Shown: positions 51,415 to 58,335, counted from the first letter of the stretch. The stretch: 64,000 nt of DNA from Alkalispirochaeta americana (GCF_900156105.1 NZ_FTMS01000011.1:1-64000); one strand, 5' to 3'. The notes: generated by a model not told the origin, from the letters alone. Translations and numbers: made by a program.

Positions 51415-51738
51415 TCAGCCCCTCTTCTGAAGTATCCTGGCGATCACGCCCTGCAATCCCGCGGGTTCATGCCCCAGGTGGGCCACAACAGCCCTCCTCA
51501 CGGCGGCCGCCAGGGCAGCATCGGCCGGGGCCGCCTCCAGCGAGCCCGCTGCGGCAGGCGATACCGGAGCATCCTGTTGTGCTGCAACGCCTTCGCCCCG
51601 GCGGAGGGAAACACCCCGTTCCCGTGCCCGCTCCCGCGCCACATCGGTAACCACCGTATTGGCATCAAGACAAAGCTCTGTTTCTCCCCGTTCCGTCAAC
51701 TCATCAATATCCCGGGCTGTGATAAAACGCTTTCCCAT
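51415..51738 (-). CDS. Small microcompartment-associated protein resembling EutQ N-terminal region
   Basis: Last gene of the microcompartment operon, 107 residues. Residues 4-45 (RFITARDIDELTERGETELC, then VVTDVARERARERGVSLRR) match the N-terminal module of EutQ, and more weakly EutT, encoded in the same operon. A Gln/Ala/Pro-rich linker follows. The C-terminal part, ALAAAVRRAVVAHLGHEP and LQGVIARILQK, is amphipathic and helical, like encapsulation peptides. From memory, enterobacterial EutQ has both segments fused ahead of its cupin. ATG 51738 is chosen for the GGAGG 8 nt upstream. A scaffold or targeting role is inferred, not shown. Confidence 0.65.
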   Translation of the reverse strand: MGKRFITARDIDELTERGETELCLDANTVVTDVARERARERGVSLRRGEGVAAQQDAPVSPAAAGSLEAAPADAALAAAVRRAVVAHLGHEPAGLQGVIARILQKRG

Positions 51739-51751
51739 TCTTCTGCCTCCG

Positions 51752-52375
51752 TCACACACCATCAATCGATTCTATCGCCGTCACTGCCGCATCGCGCGCA
51801 GCCAGGACATCGGCCTCGGTGCCCGCCATCCAGAGCCGTCCGTATCGCCCAACTCCGCTAATGTGCATCAAGTTGACCGTTGAAGCTTTCTCGGCCTCGT
51901 TTGCAGCAAGGTTGATGTATGCAGCAGGTTCAACCTCCAGGACCAGCATGGTCTCCCCCGGGACAAGCATCATCCCCCGACTGAAGCGGTTCAGGAGCTG
52001 TGCCTGGTAACCGTTCACGTTGGTGATCACCTGCATCGAGGCAATCGAGGGTTTTTTCCGCTGGCTCATATCCAGGCCGAGCTCCCGCAATACCACCTCA
52101 CCAGCCTGAAGCACATCCTCCTGGGAGGTGGAGTGAAGCTCAAACATTCCGAACTCCCGTTCCACAATCTGAGCCCCCGGGCGAGCACTGGTGGCCTTTA
52201 CAGCCGCATCAACCACCCGAAAAACCCAGTTCCCTGGAGCCATCTCCACGTAAAGGCTTGCCATACCCTCTATGGGAAGATCACCCTGGGTCACGGTACC
52301 CACAAAGGCGGCGTACTGCGGCTGCATCCGGTCAAGATAGCAATAGGCCCTCAATTGAAAATTGTCAGTGGTCAT
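51752..52375 (-). CDS. Tandem BMC-domain shell protein (BMC-T type)
   Basis: Shell protein of 207 residues with two divergent BMC-like units. The first covers about 38-100 (GMASLYVEMAPGNWVFRVVD to AGEVVLRELG) and the second about 140-205 (PGETMLVLEVEPAAYINLAA to AARDAAVTAIESI). Each follows the beta-alpha-beta pattern of pfam00936. Proteins with two BMC domains form pseudohexameric trimers, often with a gated pore. This one is not EutL, which is encoded separately upstream. It starts at the last base of the eutJ stop. Domain boundaries are judged by eye. Confidence 0.65.
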   Translation of the reverse strand: MTTDNFQLRAYCYLDRMQPQYAAFVGTVTQGDLPIEGMASLYVEMAPGNWVFRVVDAAVKATSARPGAQIVEREFGMFELHSTSQEDVLQAGEVVLRELGLDMSQRKKPSIASMQVITNVNGYQAQLLNRFSRGMMLVPGETMLVLEVEPAAYINLAANEAEKASTVNLMHISGVGRYGRLWMAGTEADVLAARDAAVTAIESIDGV

Positions 52376-53223
52376 CAGTTATTCCTTTCTGCCAGCGCCA
52401 GCGTCTGGACCCCGTCGTTCAAAGCGATTCCCAGGGGCGTCACAAAAAGCGGATTGCCCGGCACCAGGGTTTCTACCCCCGTGGCCGCCTGGACAACGCC
52501 CGCCATACCCTCAAAACTGCAGGTGCCACCCACCAGGTACACTCGGTCAACCTGAAAGGGTGCAATATGGGAGGAGATGATCGAACCGATCTTCTCCATC
52601 ACCGGCCGCACCAGGGGAAACAACTCCCGATGTCTGGAAGGATCCGTCTTGAGCGCCTCGGCCTGGTCAAAGGAGATCTTCCGTGCTCCCGCCAGGACCA
52701 GACTGAAATGGGTTCCTCCCGTGGGTTCATCGGCCGTATAGACCACCTCTCCCTGATCTATCACGGCGATCCCCGTTGTTCCGCCTCCTACATCCACAAC
52801 TACGCCCTGATCAACCTGCAGAAGCGTGTTGGCCGCGCTTGGCTCGTCGATCAGGGTGCTGCAGGAAAGACCTGCCGATTCCAGAACGTACTTCACCGCC
52901 CGGACCTCTCCGGGAGAAACCCCCGGAGGGTACGAAGTGGCGGCGCTCTCCAGCTCCCGTCCAAGACGAGCCTCAAGACGCTCTTTCATGGACCTCACCA
53001 GATCCGTGGCCCCAAGAAAATCCACCACTACGCCATCGCGCACCACTTGAGCAAAGTGGTACTCCCCCGCCAGGGGCGTACCCTCTTCATCAAGGACAAA
53101 CATGACGGTATAGGCCGTTCCCAGATCCACTCCAACCGAGAGACGCCCTTCGGCCCGGACAGGGCCCGTTTCCTGCACCACCTGATCAGCTCTGTCGAGG
53201 ATCTCCAGAAGTCGGCTGTTCAC
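52375..53223 (-). CDS. eutJ: Ethanolamine utilisation protein EutJ
   Basis: Actin/Hsp70-fold protein, 282 residues, with a putative chaperone-like role in the Eut microcompartment. The phosphate-1 motif is LSVGVDLGTAYTVMFVLDE, phosphate-2 is GVVVDVGGGTTGIAVIDQG, and the adenosine motif lies in VDRVYLVGGTCSFEGMAG. NTLLQVDQG and VVYTADEPTGGTHFSLVLAG fit the family. It overlaps eutT by 4 nt. The exact function of EutJ is unproven. Confidence 0.9.
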   Translation of the reverse strand: MNSRLLEILDRADQVVQETGPVRAEGRLSVGVDLGTAYTVMFVLDEEGTPLAGEYHFAQVVRDGVVVDFLGATDLVRSMKERLEARLGRELESAATSYPPGVSPGEVRAVKYVLESAGLSCSTLIDEPSAANTLLQVDQGVVVDVGGGTTGIAVIDQGEVVYTADEPTGGTHFSLVLAGARKISFDQAEALKTDPSRHRELFPLVRPVMEKIGSIISSHIAPFQVDRVYLVGGTCSFEGMAGVVQAATGVETLVPGNPLFVTPLGIALNDGVQTLALAERNN

Positions 53224-54026
53224 AGGAGACCTCCTGCACCGTAGTCTCCCCGCACCAGCAGGAGCTCCAGCAGATAGACGGCGCTACTCAGGCGATTCAC
53301 CGCAACCGCCAGCTCAGGAAGCTCCCGGGATGACCCCGGAGGGAAGGCATCAAGCGCAACAAGCTCCGTCTCCCTCACCTGGGTTCGCAGCACATTGAGC
53401 CAATGAAGCAGTTCCGCATCCTCTACAGCAGGCGCCAGGTGTGGCACCCCCAGCTCTTTCTGCGGATCGTGGGTAGCCTTCCGCAAAGCAGCCTCGTCGA
53501 ATCCAGCTACCTGGATCGGCGCTACAGGCCGCAGATTATACTCGGCGCTCATTATTTCCCGGCAATAGGCCGCCACCGTGGCCAGATGCTCCACCAGTTT
53601 TGGATACCCCGCCGTCCTGGCCCGGGACGCTGTCAGCATAACCCAGGCATTCAGGCTGTCCATTTTGCCCCGAAAGCGTATCCGGGGACTGTTCTTTGCA
53701 TCAAACCTTTCGGCATCGACCTGCGTCATATGTTCCGGTTTTTCCTTCACACCGGAACCACACAGCGCGCAACGAGGAGCATCTCCCGAGAGAACGACAG
53801 GAAACTCACCGGGGCGATCCCACCCGGAATCAGCCATCCCCGAGGCCTCCTTCTCACCGGAAGGAAGGGAACCCGAGGGATCATCAAAAGCGATTGCCAC
53901 CTTCCAGTGGTTCAGAAAGTCCTGTGCCGCCGGAGAGAAGCGGGATCCCCGGGGTAGCGAAAGCTTCATCCCCTCCCGGGGCGGCCCCAGGAGGTGCCTC
54001 AGGGCTTCCTCGGTGTACAACGGCAT
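53220..54026 (-). CDS. eutT: Ethanolamine utilisation cobalamin adenosyltransferase EutT
   Basis: Makes adenosylcobalamin, the cofactor of EutBC, from ATP and corrinoid; 268 residues. The Cys-rich metal site is RCALCGSGVKEKPEH, which retains a CxxC but lacks the doubled CC that I recall in the enterobacterial motif. SPRIRFRGKMDSLNAWVML, EHLATVAAYCREIMSAEYN and LHWLNVLRTQVRETELVAL agree with EutT. The first ~45 residues share the EutQ-like N-terminal module. ATG 54026 (behind AAAGGC) is chosen. GTG 54044 would overlap eutQ by 4 nt and is an alternative. Confidence 0.88.
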   Translation of the reverse strand: MPLYTEEALRHLLGPPREGMKLSLPRGSRFSPAAQDFLNHWKVAIAFDDPSGSLPSGEKEASGMADSGWDRPGEFPVVLSGDAPRCALCGSGVKEKPEHMTQVDAERFDAKNSPRIRFRGKMDSLNAWVMLTASRARTAGYPKLVEHLATVAAYCREIMSAEYNLRPVAPIQVAGFDEAALRKATHDPQKELGVPHLAPAVEDAELLHWLNVLRTQVRETELVALDAFPPGSSRELPELAVAVNRLSSAVYLLELLLVRGDYGAGGLL

Positions 54027-54040
54027 AGCTTTGCCTTTTT

Positions 54041-54649
54041 TCACGACGGCATCGCCCAGTCAGCCGGGTATGTGACGTAAAAGAGTTTCGCCCAGGAAGG
54101 AGTCCCGAAGGTTATCGCCGTTCCGTGGGGCACGTAGAGGATATCGCCCGGCTTGCCCACGATCGTTCCCTCCCGAGTCCCGATATGCAACTCCCCTTCC
54201 AGCACGTACTGAACTTCATGGTAATGAAAGGTCCAGGGGAAGGATCCTTTCTGGAGCGAGAGGAACCCCGCTGCCAGAGGAGCTCCATCGGCCGAGGTGA
54301 TCACATCTCCGCACCGAACATCCATCTCGGGCCGGCCGATATCGAAGGCGAAGGGAGGCAACGATACCTCCCGGCCATTCACGACCTTGATACCCCTCTG
54401 GGAAGAAAGCTCCTTCGCCACCGGGGGCGGAGCCGCCAGAGCATCCTGGTTCGCCCCGGGCCGGCCTTCACCGGAATCACCCTGGCTCGAAGCGGGACGA
54501 CGCCGAACCTCGATGGAAAGCTCCCTCGCCAAATCCCGGGCCAGGGGCGTAATGATATCCCCTGGCTCAAGGATCAGAAGGGAACAGCTACCGCTTCGTC
54601 CCAGATCACGGATCGAATCCTCGGTGTATAGTTTTTTCTTGCCTGCCAT
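54041..54649 (-). CDS. eutQ: Ethanolamine utilisation protein EutQ (cupin)
   Basis: Cupin-fold protein of 202 residues; EutQ has been reported as an acetate kinase in Salmonella. The N-terminal module (KKLYTEDSIRDLGRSGSCS, DIITPLARDLARELSIEV) precedes a ~40-residue low-complexity linker. The cupin core includes FPWTFHYHEVQYVLEGELHI, GKPGDILYVPHGTAITFG, and ends KLFYVTYPADWAMPS. This form lacks the helical VRR/AVVAHL segment found in the free 107-residue protein. ATG 54649 follows GGGAGGGG. Confidence 0.88.
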   Translation of the reverse strand: MAGKKKLYTEDSIRDLGRSGSCSLLILEPGDIITPLARDLARELSIEVRRRPASSQGDSGEGRPGANQDALAAPPPVAKELSSQRGIKVVNGREVSLPPFAFDIGRPEMDVRCGDVITSADGAPLAAGFLSLQKGSFPWTFHYHEVQYVLEGELHIGTREGTIVGKPGDILYVPHGTAITFGTPSWAKLFYVTYPADWAMPS

Positions 54650-54685: not shown

Positions 54686-55210
54686 TTATTTCGCGCTCGG
54701 CAGAATCATCTCGGCATCACTGTGGGGCCGAGGAATTACATGAACGCTCACCAGCTCCCCGATCCGCTGCGCAGCGGCCGCTCCGGCATCGGTAGCAGCT
54801 TTAACAGCACCTACGTCTCCCCGAACCATGACAGTAACCAGACCGCCACCAATATATTCTTTACCAATCAGCTTTACGTTTGCTGCCTTTACCATCGCAT
54901 CGGCTGCCTCGATTGCTCCGACAAGCCCTTTGGTCTCGATCATTCCCAACGCGATCATCTGTACGTCTGCCATTGTCTGCTCCTTTTCAGGTTTCTCTTT
55001 TTTTGGTGATGAAGAACCGGATTGTTCCGATTTCCCGCCGTCTTCCCCGCTACTCTCGCCTTTATTTTTGTTGCCTTTGCTGTTTCCCTTCCGGGCATCT
55101 TTCTCTTGCCCGGCGGTATCGCCCTGCGCCAGCCCCCCCTCCTCAACCGAATCAAGTTCGGGCTGGACAGGATCGTTCTTCTTGCCACCTTTTTTTGGTT
55201 CATCAGCCAT
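54686..55210 (-). CDS. eutM: EutM-like BMC shell protein with a charged N-terminal extension
   Basis: A 174-residue protein. Residues 80-174 are a canonical single-domain BMC shell protein ([27 protein letters not shown]-like [20 protein letters not shown]), nearly identical to the upstream EutM copy. Residues 1-79 are an unstructured, Lys/Glu/Gly/Ser-rich extension ([34 protein letters not shown]). ATG 55210 follows AAGGAGC. A second ATG at 54973, with AAAAGGAG 6 nt before it, would start the plain shell domain. The gene may therefore make a long and a short form, similar in principle to PduB and PduB'. Confidence 0.88.
54971..54987 (-). promoter_or_regulatory. Internal ribosome-binding site and start codon in the extended eutM gene
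   Basis: AAAAGGAG (54987-54980) lies 6 nt before an in-frame ATG (54973-54971) that begins the canonical shell domain ([11 protein letters not shown]). Spacing and strength equal the operon's other start sites. Confidence 0.6.
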
Positions 55211-55221
55211 CTACCAGCTCC

Positions 55222-56715
55222 TTATATCTCCGCCAGAACCTGGCGAACGATATCGGCGATCAGCTCTGGTGAGTGGGTAGACGTACCGGCACTCCCCTGG
55301 CCGTCCGACACAGCCTTCACCCCCGGAGCGAGACTCTTTGCGGCCTCGGGAGGTTCCAGGGTCATCGTCGCCAGCTGCTTTACGTTCAGAAGGTGCGTCA
55401 CGGTAATATTTCCGCTCATCACCGCCCCGCCGACACCACCAGGCGCAAGGGTCATGGAGGGCATCACGCCCGTCGTTGCTCCCACGGCGCCCAAGGTTCC
55501 CCAGGTGTTTACCAGAATGCGAAAGACCGGTTTTTCCAAACCGAAGGCCTCAACAACCTCTTCATCGGTGGCGTGAATCACCAGGGAGTGGCCGTCGCCT
55601 CCGTAGCGGATCAGCTGCAGGCACCGTTCGCACCCGGCATGCCAATCATCCTCCACGTAGAACCCCAGGACAGTGGTGAGCTTTTCCCCACTTAGAGGGT
55701 ATTCCTTCCCGACCCCCTCCAGATCAGCCACAAGCACCCGGGCATGATCAGGGACAGAAAACCCCGCCAGGGCAGCCAGTTGCTGCGGAGTCTTCCCCAC
55801 AGCCTTGGGGTTCATGGCGCCGCTGGAATGAAAAAGAGTTCGCTCCAGAGCGTTCCGTTCTTCAGCGTTCACCCAGTGCGCCCCGGCAGCACGCATCTCC
55901 TGTCGCAACTGCTCCGCAATGGGTCGGTCTGCCACAACAGCCTGCTCGGTAGCACAAATCACGGAACAATCGAAGGCCTTGCTGTTGACGATATCCTGAG
56001 CAGCCTTCCGGACGTAGGCGCTCCGGTCTACGTAGACAGGGACATTCCCCGGACCAACCCCGATCGCAGGTTTTCCCATGCTATGGGCTGCCCGAACCAT
56101 GGGGGTTCCTCCGGTAGCAAGAATCAGTGACACCGCATAATGCTGCATCAACTCCCGGGACCCTTCCAGAGAGATCTGTTCCATGCAACTGACCAGTCCG
56201 GGAGGCATTCCGGCCCGTTCCCCCGCTTCAGCCATAATGCGCACCGTCTCCAGAGAACACTTTTTCGCCGAGGGATGGGGTGCGATGATCACAGCGTTGC
56301 GAGCCTTCACCCCGATGAGGATTTTATACATTGCCGTGGAAGTCGGGTTGGTTGAAGGAATTAACCCTGCAATCACCCCCACGGGCCAACCGATCTTTAC
56401 AACCTTGCGCGCCTCGTCCCGCTCGATCACGCCAACGGTGGGAATATTCTGTATGGATTCCCAGAGAGTCTTGCTGGCGAACTCGTTTTTCACGCGTTTA
56501 TGAGCGGGGACACCAAAGCCCGTCTCGTCGTGGGCCATCTGTCCCAGCCGTTCCGATGCCTTAAACGCAGCCTCAGCCATGGCGGCGCAGATCCGGTCCA
56601 CCTCCTGCTGCGACGCCTTCAGAAACTTCCGTTGAGCAGCACGAGCAGCAACAGCCCGCTCCCTCGCTTCCTGAATCGAAAGCAGATCCGCATCAAAGGT
56701 TTGCTTTTCCTGCAT
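55222..56715 (-). CDS. eutE: CoA-acylating aldehyde dehydrogenase of the microcompartment (EutE role)
   Basis: Oxidises acetaldehyde to acetyl-CoA with NAD, 497 residues. The catalytic Cys lies in KAFDCSVICATEQAVV; IPSTNPTSTAMYKILIGVKA and GGTPMVRAAHSMGKPAIGVG are cofactor- and substrate-site segments. It belongs to a Firmicutes/AdhE-like clade rather than the enterobacterial EutE one. A Gly/Ser linker (SDGQGSAGTSTHS) leads to a C-terminal amphipathic helix SPELIADIVRQVLAEI, a probable encapsulation peptide. Enterobacterial EutE has its peptide at the N-terminus. A sulfoacetaldehyde dehydrogenase is a less likely alternative. Confidence 0.85.
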   Translation of the reverse strand: MQEKQTFDADLLSIQEARERAVAARAAQRKFLKASQQEVDRICAAMAEAAFKASERLGQMAHDETGFGVPAHKRVKNEFASKTLWESIQNIPTVGVIERDEARKVVKIGWPVGVIAGLIPSTNPTSTAMYKILIGVKARNAVIIAPHPSAKKCSLETVRIMAEAGERAGMPPGLVSCMEQISLEGSRELMQHYAVSLILATGGTPMVRAAHSMGKPAIGVGPGNVPVYVDRSAYVRKAAQDIVNSKAFDCSVICATEQAVVADRPIAEQLRQEMRAAGAHWVNAEERNALERTLFHSSGAMNPKAVGKTPQQLAALAGFSVPDHARVLVADLEGVGKEYPLSGEKLTTVLGFYVEDDWHAGCERCLQLIRYGGDGHSLVIHATDEEVVEAFGLEKPVFRILVNTWGTLGAVGATTGVMPSMTLAPGGVGGAVMSGNITVTHLLNVKQLATMTLEPPEAAKSLAPGVKAVSDGQGSAGTSTHSPELIADIVRQVLAEI

Positions 56716-57417: not shown

Positions 57418-58335
57418 TCAGCCCTGCTCGCCGGAAATCTTCATCCGGAGATCTACACCGCTTGCCTGGTACTGGAGATACTTTTTGACCTGCTCCACAA
57501 TATAGGCTCCCGCCTCAAGGGGGTTCGTTCCACCCTGGGTCGTAATCATGCAAAAAGCATCACGCTCTCCGTCGGTCTTTCCCTTGGCAGGTTTCCAGCC
57601 CATGTAGGCGCTCATCGCATCGGCAACCCCCAGGCCGGGTCGTTCACCGATCAGGATAATCACTACGTCGGCCCCAAGAACGGAGTTTACGCTGTTAATC
57701 ACCCCCACCCGGGCGTACTTGATGAAGAAAGGAGTGCCCGAAGAGATACCCGCTGATTTCAGCCCCTGCTGGATAACGGGAAGAATCTCCGGCGCATTGT
57801 TGTTTATGGCAGCAGCGCTCAGGCCATCGCCCACGACGATCTGCACCTGGGGATTTTTCGTGCATTTCTCGGCCACCAGCGCCTTCGCCTCATCGGAGAG
57901 CTCCCTCCCCAGATCAGGCCTCATGAGGTACTGCTGCCGGTTCTCAACTTTGCTTTGCACAGAAAAGAGCCCCATTTTTTCGATGACCTCGTCGGGGACA
58001 TCGGAATAGATCGCATCCTGGGTTACTCCGTGATCCGCCTGGAAGAGCAAGAGCGATTTGGTCCGGGGACGGGATCCCGCCCGGCCAGCCCCAATGCGCG
58101 CGCCCGAGGCGGCTTTCAGATTCTTCAAGCCCTCTGGATCAACAGGATTCTGTACTCCGATTTCCTGGCGGGCCTCGACGGTGGTGGGGTCATCCAGGTC
58201 GATAACAACGCCCCCTTCCGGGGAAGCGACCTGAGCCTTTCCGGCAGAACCAGCGGCAGTCGCTCCCGGTGATCCGCCCAGCTCCTTTAACACTGCCTGA
58301 ACGATAGCCTCTATATCATGCTTGGTCTGTTCCAT
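57418..58335 (-). CDS. eutC: Ethanolamine ammonia-lyase small subunit EutC
   Basis: Small subunit of the adenosylcobalamin-dependent lyase that converts ethanolamine to acetaldehyde and ammonia, 305 residues. ARIGAGRAGSRPRTKSLLLF and QADHGVTQDAIYSDVP are family motifs, and LIGERPGLGVADAMSAYMGW contributes to the corrinoid site. The N-terminal segment HDIEAIVQAVLKELGG is an amphipathic helix like the known EutC encapsulation signal, followed by a linker. ATG 58335 follows AAGGAGC. The upstream frame is not used. Confidence 0.94.
   Translation of the reverse strand: MEQTKHDIEAIVQAVLKELGGSPGATAAGSAGKAQVASPEGGVVIDLDDPTTVEARQEIGVQNPVDPEGLKNLKAASGARIGAGRAGSRPRTKSLLLFQADHGVTQDAIYSDVPDEVIEKMGLFSVQSKVENRQQYLMRPDLGRELSDEAKALVAEKCTKNPQVQIVVGDGLSAAAINNNAPEILPVIQQGLKSAGISSGTPFFIKYARVGVINSVNSVLGADVVIILIGERPGLGVADAMSAYMGWKPAKGKTDGERDAFCMITTQGGTNPLEAGAYIVEQVKKYLQYQASGVDLRMKISGEQG

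Follow-up and report, generated by a model that had tools for sequence, protein, structure and literature searches.

The eut microcompartment operon of the spirochaete Alkalispirochaeta americana raises the question of whether EutQ, EutT and a small protein of 107 residues begin with one and the same domain, and what such a domain would do in a bacterial microcompartment (BMC). The three genes lie between positions 51,415 and 54,649 of the window, that is, the whole stretch of 64,000 nucleotides analysed here (GCF_900156105.1 NZ_FTMS01000011.1:1-64000). An earlier note on this DNA had proposed a recurrent N-terminal module with the pattern aromatic or hydrophobic residue-Thr, helix, short beta, helix, strand, and had considered duplication of a short targeting or docking domain plausible among genes close together in one operon. 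The three genes are indeed found on the minus strand of a single eut operon, and the analysis confirms that their products share a module of about 45 residues, beyond chance. By analogy with Salmonella EutQ, this module is probably a portable shell dock that would moor the enzymes when carried by EutQ and EutT and would make the small protein an adaptor between shell and cargo. The proteins and their modules are as follows.

51415..51738, minus strand: 107-residue protein, putative stand-alone adaptor (counterpart of EutQ residues 1-99); open reading frame (ORF) with ATG at 51738 and GGAGG at 51746-51750
51598..51732, minus strand: module (H1/H2 unit) of the small protein, residues 3-47; A2 profile E 7.7e-16; AlphaFold2 predicted local distance difference test (pLDDT) mostly 85-90
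53220..54026, minus strand: EutT, consisting of module, disordered linker and adenosyltransferase; NF011595 4e-32, PF01923 4e-10, AlphaFold2, Foldseek
53886..54026, minus strand: module of EutT; A2 profile E 1.2e-13; AlphaFold2 pLDDT 87-93
54041..54649, minus strand: EutQ, consisting of module, linker and cupin, without H3/H4; PF06249 1.3e-29 (residues 82-199), NF012001 2.2e-39
54500..54637, minus strand: module of EutQ; A2 profile E 2.3e-17

Homology of the three modules

As single sequences, the small protein and EutQ give a weak signal (26% identity, E 0.007), and the relationship becomes clear at the level of profiles. Iterated profile searches among 11,347 ORFs from 85 sequences (82 eut loci, two E. 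coli regions and the window), each started from one N-terminus alone, end on 75, 75 and 69 ORFs with nearly full overlap, and each recovers the other two families. When family-specific profiles are compared with hhalign, all three pairs match significantly: EutQ with the small protein (99.2%, score 86), EutT with EutQ (97.0%, score 49) and EutT with the small protein (96.3%, score 43), against a top score of 15.5 in 120 decoy comparisons with pieces of other Eut proteins. A profile-profile alignment of this kind had been named in the earlier note as a means of checking the module, and it bears the proposal out. A whole-genome profile scan of the A. americana assembly finds exactly three module copies, those of EutQ, EutT and the small protein. 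A profile is needed for such searches because the small protein alone as query against 296 Spirochaetota genomes returned essentially noise; with the module profile, 21 genomes are module-bearing. A separate match of the profile (G316:C43, E 0.0035) is weak.

Predicted structure of the module

AlphaFold2 structures cover two of the three modules, those of the small protein (modelled with ten relatives) and EutT (with 22 relatives), and the order and placement of their elements point to a common strand-helix-strand-strand-helix-strand unit. In the small protein (mean pLDDT 75), the predicted strands (E) and helices (H) are E4-6, H8-17, E21-24, E28-30, H32-41 and E44-47, followed by disordered residues 50-70 and by helices 71-88 and 95-106. 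The corresponding elements of EutT (pLDDT 87) are E3-4, H6-13, E21-25, E29-30, H32-40 and E44-48, after which a disordered linker from 52 to 65 leads into an adenosyltransferase core with Foldseek matches to PduO-type adenosyltransferases. The pattern of helices and strands proposed earlier thus reappears in both models, and the expectation of a single fold holds, in terms of element order, for these two of the three N-termini.

The module differs from an encapsulation peptide, a single terminal amphipathic helix of about 20 residues, in that its 45 residues are predicted to fold into an alpha/beta unit. Searches for a solved module structure, by sequence (best E 0.16) and with Foldseek (best E 0.45, unrelated proteins), found none. 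The peripheral subunit-binding domain of 2-oxo acid dehydrogenase E2 enzymes (PF02817), likewise a small docking unit between flexible linkers, was considered and rejected, as its weak matches (E 0.015-0.04) cover half the domain at the second helix of the module and stay under the Pfam cut-off, the predicted module fold differs in having strands, and no such match stands among the 50 Foldseek matches listed.

Relation to Salmonella EutQ

The function proposed for the module draws on Salmonella EutQ, whose N-terminal 99 residues comprise four helices (Sci Adv 2025, PMC12487888). In that study, EutQ lacking H1/H2 (9-41) keeps cargo and loses the shell, whereas EutQ lacking H3/H4 (62-99) keeps the shell and loses cargo, and residues 1-99 are sufficient to target sfGFP to the BMC (PMC12487888). 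The same segment binds EutC 1-20 with a dissociation constant of 7.6 uM; the encapsulation peptides of EutC and EutE are bound by H3/H4, with L89 and V93 as two essential hydrophobic residues of EutQ, H1/H2 show no shifts with cargo peptide, and EutQ, EutM and EutL bind one another (PMC12487888). Sequence comparison identifies the module as the counterpart of H1/H2, the shell-docking part, although the published description is of helices and the module is predicted here with strands. The docking role put forward in the earlier note is thereby supported from three sides, namely the profile comparison, the two predicted structures and the published experiments in Salmonella with the orthologous part of EutQ.

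The EutQ of the window passes from its module through a Pro/Ala-rich linker directly into the cupin, with no H3/H4, as read from the sequence. The catalytic domain of the EutT product is recognised by PF01923 and PRK15020 (4e-10 and 4e-32), and its NF011595 score of 111 lies under the NCBI equivalog cut-off of 226. EutT is reportedly located inside the Salmonella metabolosome, a finding ascribed to Costa and Escalante-Semerena in 2022.

The small protein as a putative adaptor

The small protein had been described as the module alone plus an amphipathic tail. The module is present as stated, and the tail instead forms two helices, which align with EutQ H3/H4.

51421..51528, minus strand: C-terminal two-helix segment of the small protein, residues 71-106, putative counterpart of EutQ H3/H4; AlphaFold2 helices, hhalign

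Compared with H3/H4 of beta- and gammaproteobacterial EutQ, the two-helix segment of the spirochaete and actinobacterial stand-alone proteins gives an hhalign score of 23.5 (probability 66%, 36 columns) against a decoy maximum of 16.2, which is graded as moderate support. In a hand alignment, LVAQLMEKV of E. coli H4 falls on LQGVIARIL, so that L89 and V93 of EutQ correspond to I99 and L103 of the small protein. The intervening linker, residues 50-70, has pLDDT below 50, is Ala/Pro-rich and varies in length among homologues. The EutQ family profile NF012001 spans position 1 to about 100 on stand-alone homologues of Wohlfahrtiimonas (L087, 4e-10), Ignatzschineria (L079, 3e-9) and Tessaracoccus (L052, 8e-4), and on the small protein of the window it extends up to position 81 (E 1.1e-3). 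A Pfam scan of the small protein gives no match, and hence no cupin (PF06249). Because it combines the N-terminal H1/H2 module, a flexible disordered linker and an H3/H4-like C-terminus, the small protein appears to be a stand-alone counterpart of EutQ 1-99, which it also resembles in operon type. It differs from Salmonella and E. coli EutQ 1-99 in being free-standing, beside a window EutQ reduced to module and cupin. If both binding functions of Salmonella EutQ carry over to it, the small protein would be a full adaptor between shell and cargo that does without the cupin enzyme. Stand-alone adaptors of this layout, with the two C-terminal helices recognised by inspection, recur at BMC loci in Actinomycetota, in Bacillota and in a further spirochaete family.

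Relative to A. alkalica, the small gene has nonsynonymous (dN) and synonymous (dS) divergences of 0.32 and 1.27 (NG86), a dN/dS of about 0.25, and the module alone has 0.18 and 1.57, a dN/dS of about 0.11; the gene is under purifying selection. Its ATG follows a GGAGG by 7 nt. Orthologues occur in spirochaetes and Actinomycetota (L038, L039, L040, L041, L042, L221), with a gene order in L221 identical to that of the window, and both ends of the protein are conserved as the linker between them drifts.

Operon setting and proposed assembly

In the 3.3 Mb A. americana genome, whose EutL is 96% identical to that of Alkalispirochaeta alkalica DSM 8900, one eut microcompartment operon occupies the minus strand between about 62 kb, where it starts, and 51.4 kb. 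Its order is EutN-type vertex protein, EutM, EutA, EutB, EutC, EutL, EutE, second EutM, EutQ, EutT, EutJ, CcmP-like BMC-T and the 107-residue protein. The candidate partners of the module and of the two-helix segment, together with the gene adjoining the small protein, are located as follows.

51752..52375, minus strand: BMC-T shell protein (CcmP-like), adjoining the putative adaptor gene; NF053796 3.1e-73
54686..55210, minus strand: EutM-type shell protein, candidate docking surface; NF012018 4.6e-41
55222-56715, minus strand: EutE, with an encapsulation-type helix at the C-terminus
55225..55272, minus strand: EutE C-terminal encapsulation-type helix SPELIADIVRQVLAEI, candidate ligand of the two-helix segment
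56744..57400, minus strand: EutL shell protein, candidate docking surface; PF00936 7.9e-15, 53% identity to E. coli EutL
58273..58335, minus strand: EutC N-terminal encapsulation peptide MEQTKHDIEAIVQAVLKELGG, candidate ligand of the two-helix segment; resembles the E. coli EutC N-terminus MDQKQIEEIVRSVMASMGQ

In the proposed assembly, the modules of EutQ and EutT would tether the cupin enzyme and the adenosyltransferase, via their flexible linkers, to the inner face of the shell (EutM/EutL). The small protein would attach to the shell through its module and, across its disordered linker, hold the amphipathic encapsulation peptides at the N-terminus of EutC and the C-terminus of EutE with its two-helix segment. 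The job of the single Salmonella EutQ, which unites module, H3/H4 and cupin, would in this lineage be split over two proteins.

The C-terminal position of the EutE helix is common to spirochaete and actinobacterial EutE, whereas E. coli EutE has an N-terminal one. The second EutM (54686-55210) carries a charged, low-complexity N-terminal extension of 78 residues, which is matched by extensions of about this length in several spirochaete and actinobacterial orthologues that occupy the same place in the gene order.

Occurrence in other microcompartment proteins

The module extends to PduM (TIGR04493 / PF15953), a linker between shell and core described as having no homology outside Pdu compartments (PMC12108088, PMC9132943). 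In loci L150-L155 (e.g., L150:1486-1977), PduM ends, over some 45 residues, in the module known from EutQ, EutT and the small protein, with hhalign probabilities of 94% to EutQ, 95.5% to TIGR02536, 92% to the small protein and only 55% to EutT. PduM differs in placing the module at the C-terminus and the encapsulation peptide at the N-terminus, a layout shared by TIGR02536 (eut_hyp), where an encapsulation-type helix likewise comes first. The C-terminal module of TIGR02536 matches EutT, EutQ and the small protein at 98%, and its middle domain is a different one. Further carriers are BMC flavoproteins and some PduL-type proteins, with the module at the C-terminus, and a Tessaracoccus phosphotransacetylase, with the module at the N-terminus.

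TIGR02536 occurs in Eut loci of Bacillota, Fusobacteriota and deltaproteobacteria. In the deltaproteobacterial, Bacillota and Fusobacterium eut loci listed, EutQ is mostly short (about 150 residues), begins with an encapsulation-type helix and has no module, and the module is carried by TIGR02536 and/or EutT. This distribution bears on the statement that Gram-positive Eut compartments are probably assembled differently, which its authors based on the absence of H1-H3 from EutQ there (PMC12487888).

Several other loci contain module proteins of unusual composition. An actinobacterial BMC locus (L219:8067-10181, G757) encodes a malate dehydrogenase-like protein with the module ahead of it, together with a BMC-T, an EutE-like aldehyde dehydrogenase and a stand-alone adaptor. 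The module also begins an aminotransferase/desulfurase-like protein (L237:5380-6765) in a BMC locus of a spirochaete. This locus has BMC-T, BMC-H and vertex genes, with no eut enzyme genes seen, and possibly represents an uncharacterised compartment type. In second BMC loci of Clostridium and Enterococcus, proteins with the module and a helical domain stand beside EutJ-like genes (L223:12701-13387, L224:8231-8782) and are perhaps degenerate EutT.

Alternative explanations

Among 300 Bacillota genomes (module presence at E <= 1e-4), the module occurs in 74 and a BMC shell protein in 85, with both in 67 genomes as compared with about 21 expected by chance. The module is thus tied to microcompartments strongly and not exclusively, because in the seven module-bearing genomes that are BMC-less an ACT-domain protein bears it as an N-terminal fusion.

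These fusions weigh against the proposed reading and may indicate a more general binding role. Three further observations count on the same side: the H3/H4 match of the small protein is of moderate strength, Q75 of Salmonella EutQ is unconserved in it, and PduM, in the absence of the PduB N-terminus (1-37), was reported to accompany the cargo core instead of shell assemblies (PMC9132943). The localisation of PduM to the core must be made to fit the shell-dock model, for instance if its dock is weak and depends on PduB. An alternative that would accommodate the ACT-domain fusions and the behaviour of PduM is that the module serves protein-protein docking or oligomerisation in general, is often used by BMC operons, and binds lumen proteins or itself and not the shell; that no solved relative displays the module surface also leaves room for it. 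This explanation is nevertheless unlikely, as Salmonella EutQ tracks the shell without H3/H4 and cargo without H1/H2, the H1/H2 helices give no shifts with cargo peptide, and the great majority of module-bearing Bacillota genomes have BMC shell genes.

The small protein is shorter than EutQ, has no enzyme domain and belongs to no Pfam family, features that could also mark a broken gene or a remnant, without a function, of either EutQ or EutT. Such a remnant is very improbable given the low dN/dS of the gene and of its module, the Shine-Dalgarno sequence ahead of the ATG, the orthologues in spirochaetes and Actinomycetota with conserved gene order in L221, and the conservation of both ends around a drifting linker. 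Least credible is convergence on a common helix-strand pattern in place of homology, for although the pattern T-P-x-A-x(6)-G-I-x-V recurs in unrelated alpha/beta proteins, the best PDB matches of the model are unrelated proteins (E 0.45 or worse) and identities to the small protein of the window are often only 11-36%, independently built families match at 96-99% with decoys far below, searches from three seeds converge and the order of secondary structure agrees in two models.

The ACT-domain fusions of BMC-less Bacillota and of G550 (L207-L214) adjoin a putative UPF0210/DUF711 gene. In five of the eight loci, the fusion follows an ORF of about 937 residues with the look of an isoleucyl-tRNA synthetase.

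Age of the duplication

On a tree of 76 modules from five families, in which columns are few and many forks are unresolved, the family labels require 6 changes as compared with 40 for shuffled labels, and the best match in another genome outscores the paralogue at the same locus in all 56 testable rows. Since modules group by protein family across phyla and not by genome, the duplication appears to be ancient and not local to the operon, and a recent local duplication is rejected. Of the origin suggested in the earlier note, copying of a short shared domain between genes is retained and its restriction to this operon is not. The module would either have been copied between these genes ahead of the divergence of the phyla or have travelled with operons as they spread.

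Implications for microcompartment assembly

For the shell-dock reading, the balance tips slightly towards a wide scope, in which one small domain would be the common metabolosome shell dock on EutQ, EutT, PduM, TIGR02536, BMC flavoproteins, PduL-type enzymes and stand-alone adaptors, in Eut and Pdu compartments and in others that are apparently of the glycyl-radical type. The dock of Gram-positive Eut compartments would then sit on the C-terminus of TIGR02536 or the N-terminus of EutT, and these compartments would not follow an unrelated assembly route. Shell docking as a common function of all carriers is inferred by analogy with Salmonella EutQ. Under this reading, Gram-positive Eut assembly and the orphan PduM would receive one answer, the dock sitting on other polypeptides in the former and forming the end of the latter, and several unnamed BMC proteins would gain a likely function. 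The module would also give a reason for the possible encapsulation of EutT without a classical encapsulation peptide, and it may offer compartment engineering a compact folded shell tag. Through the module, the question of how these compartments are assembled would become directly testable.

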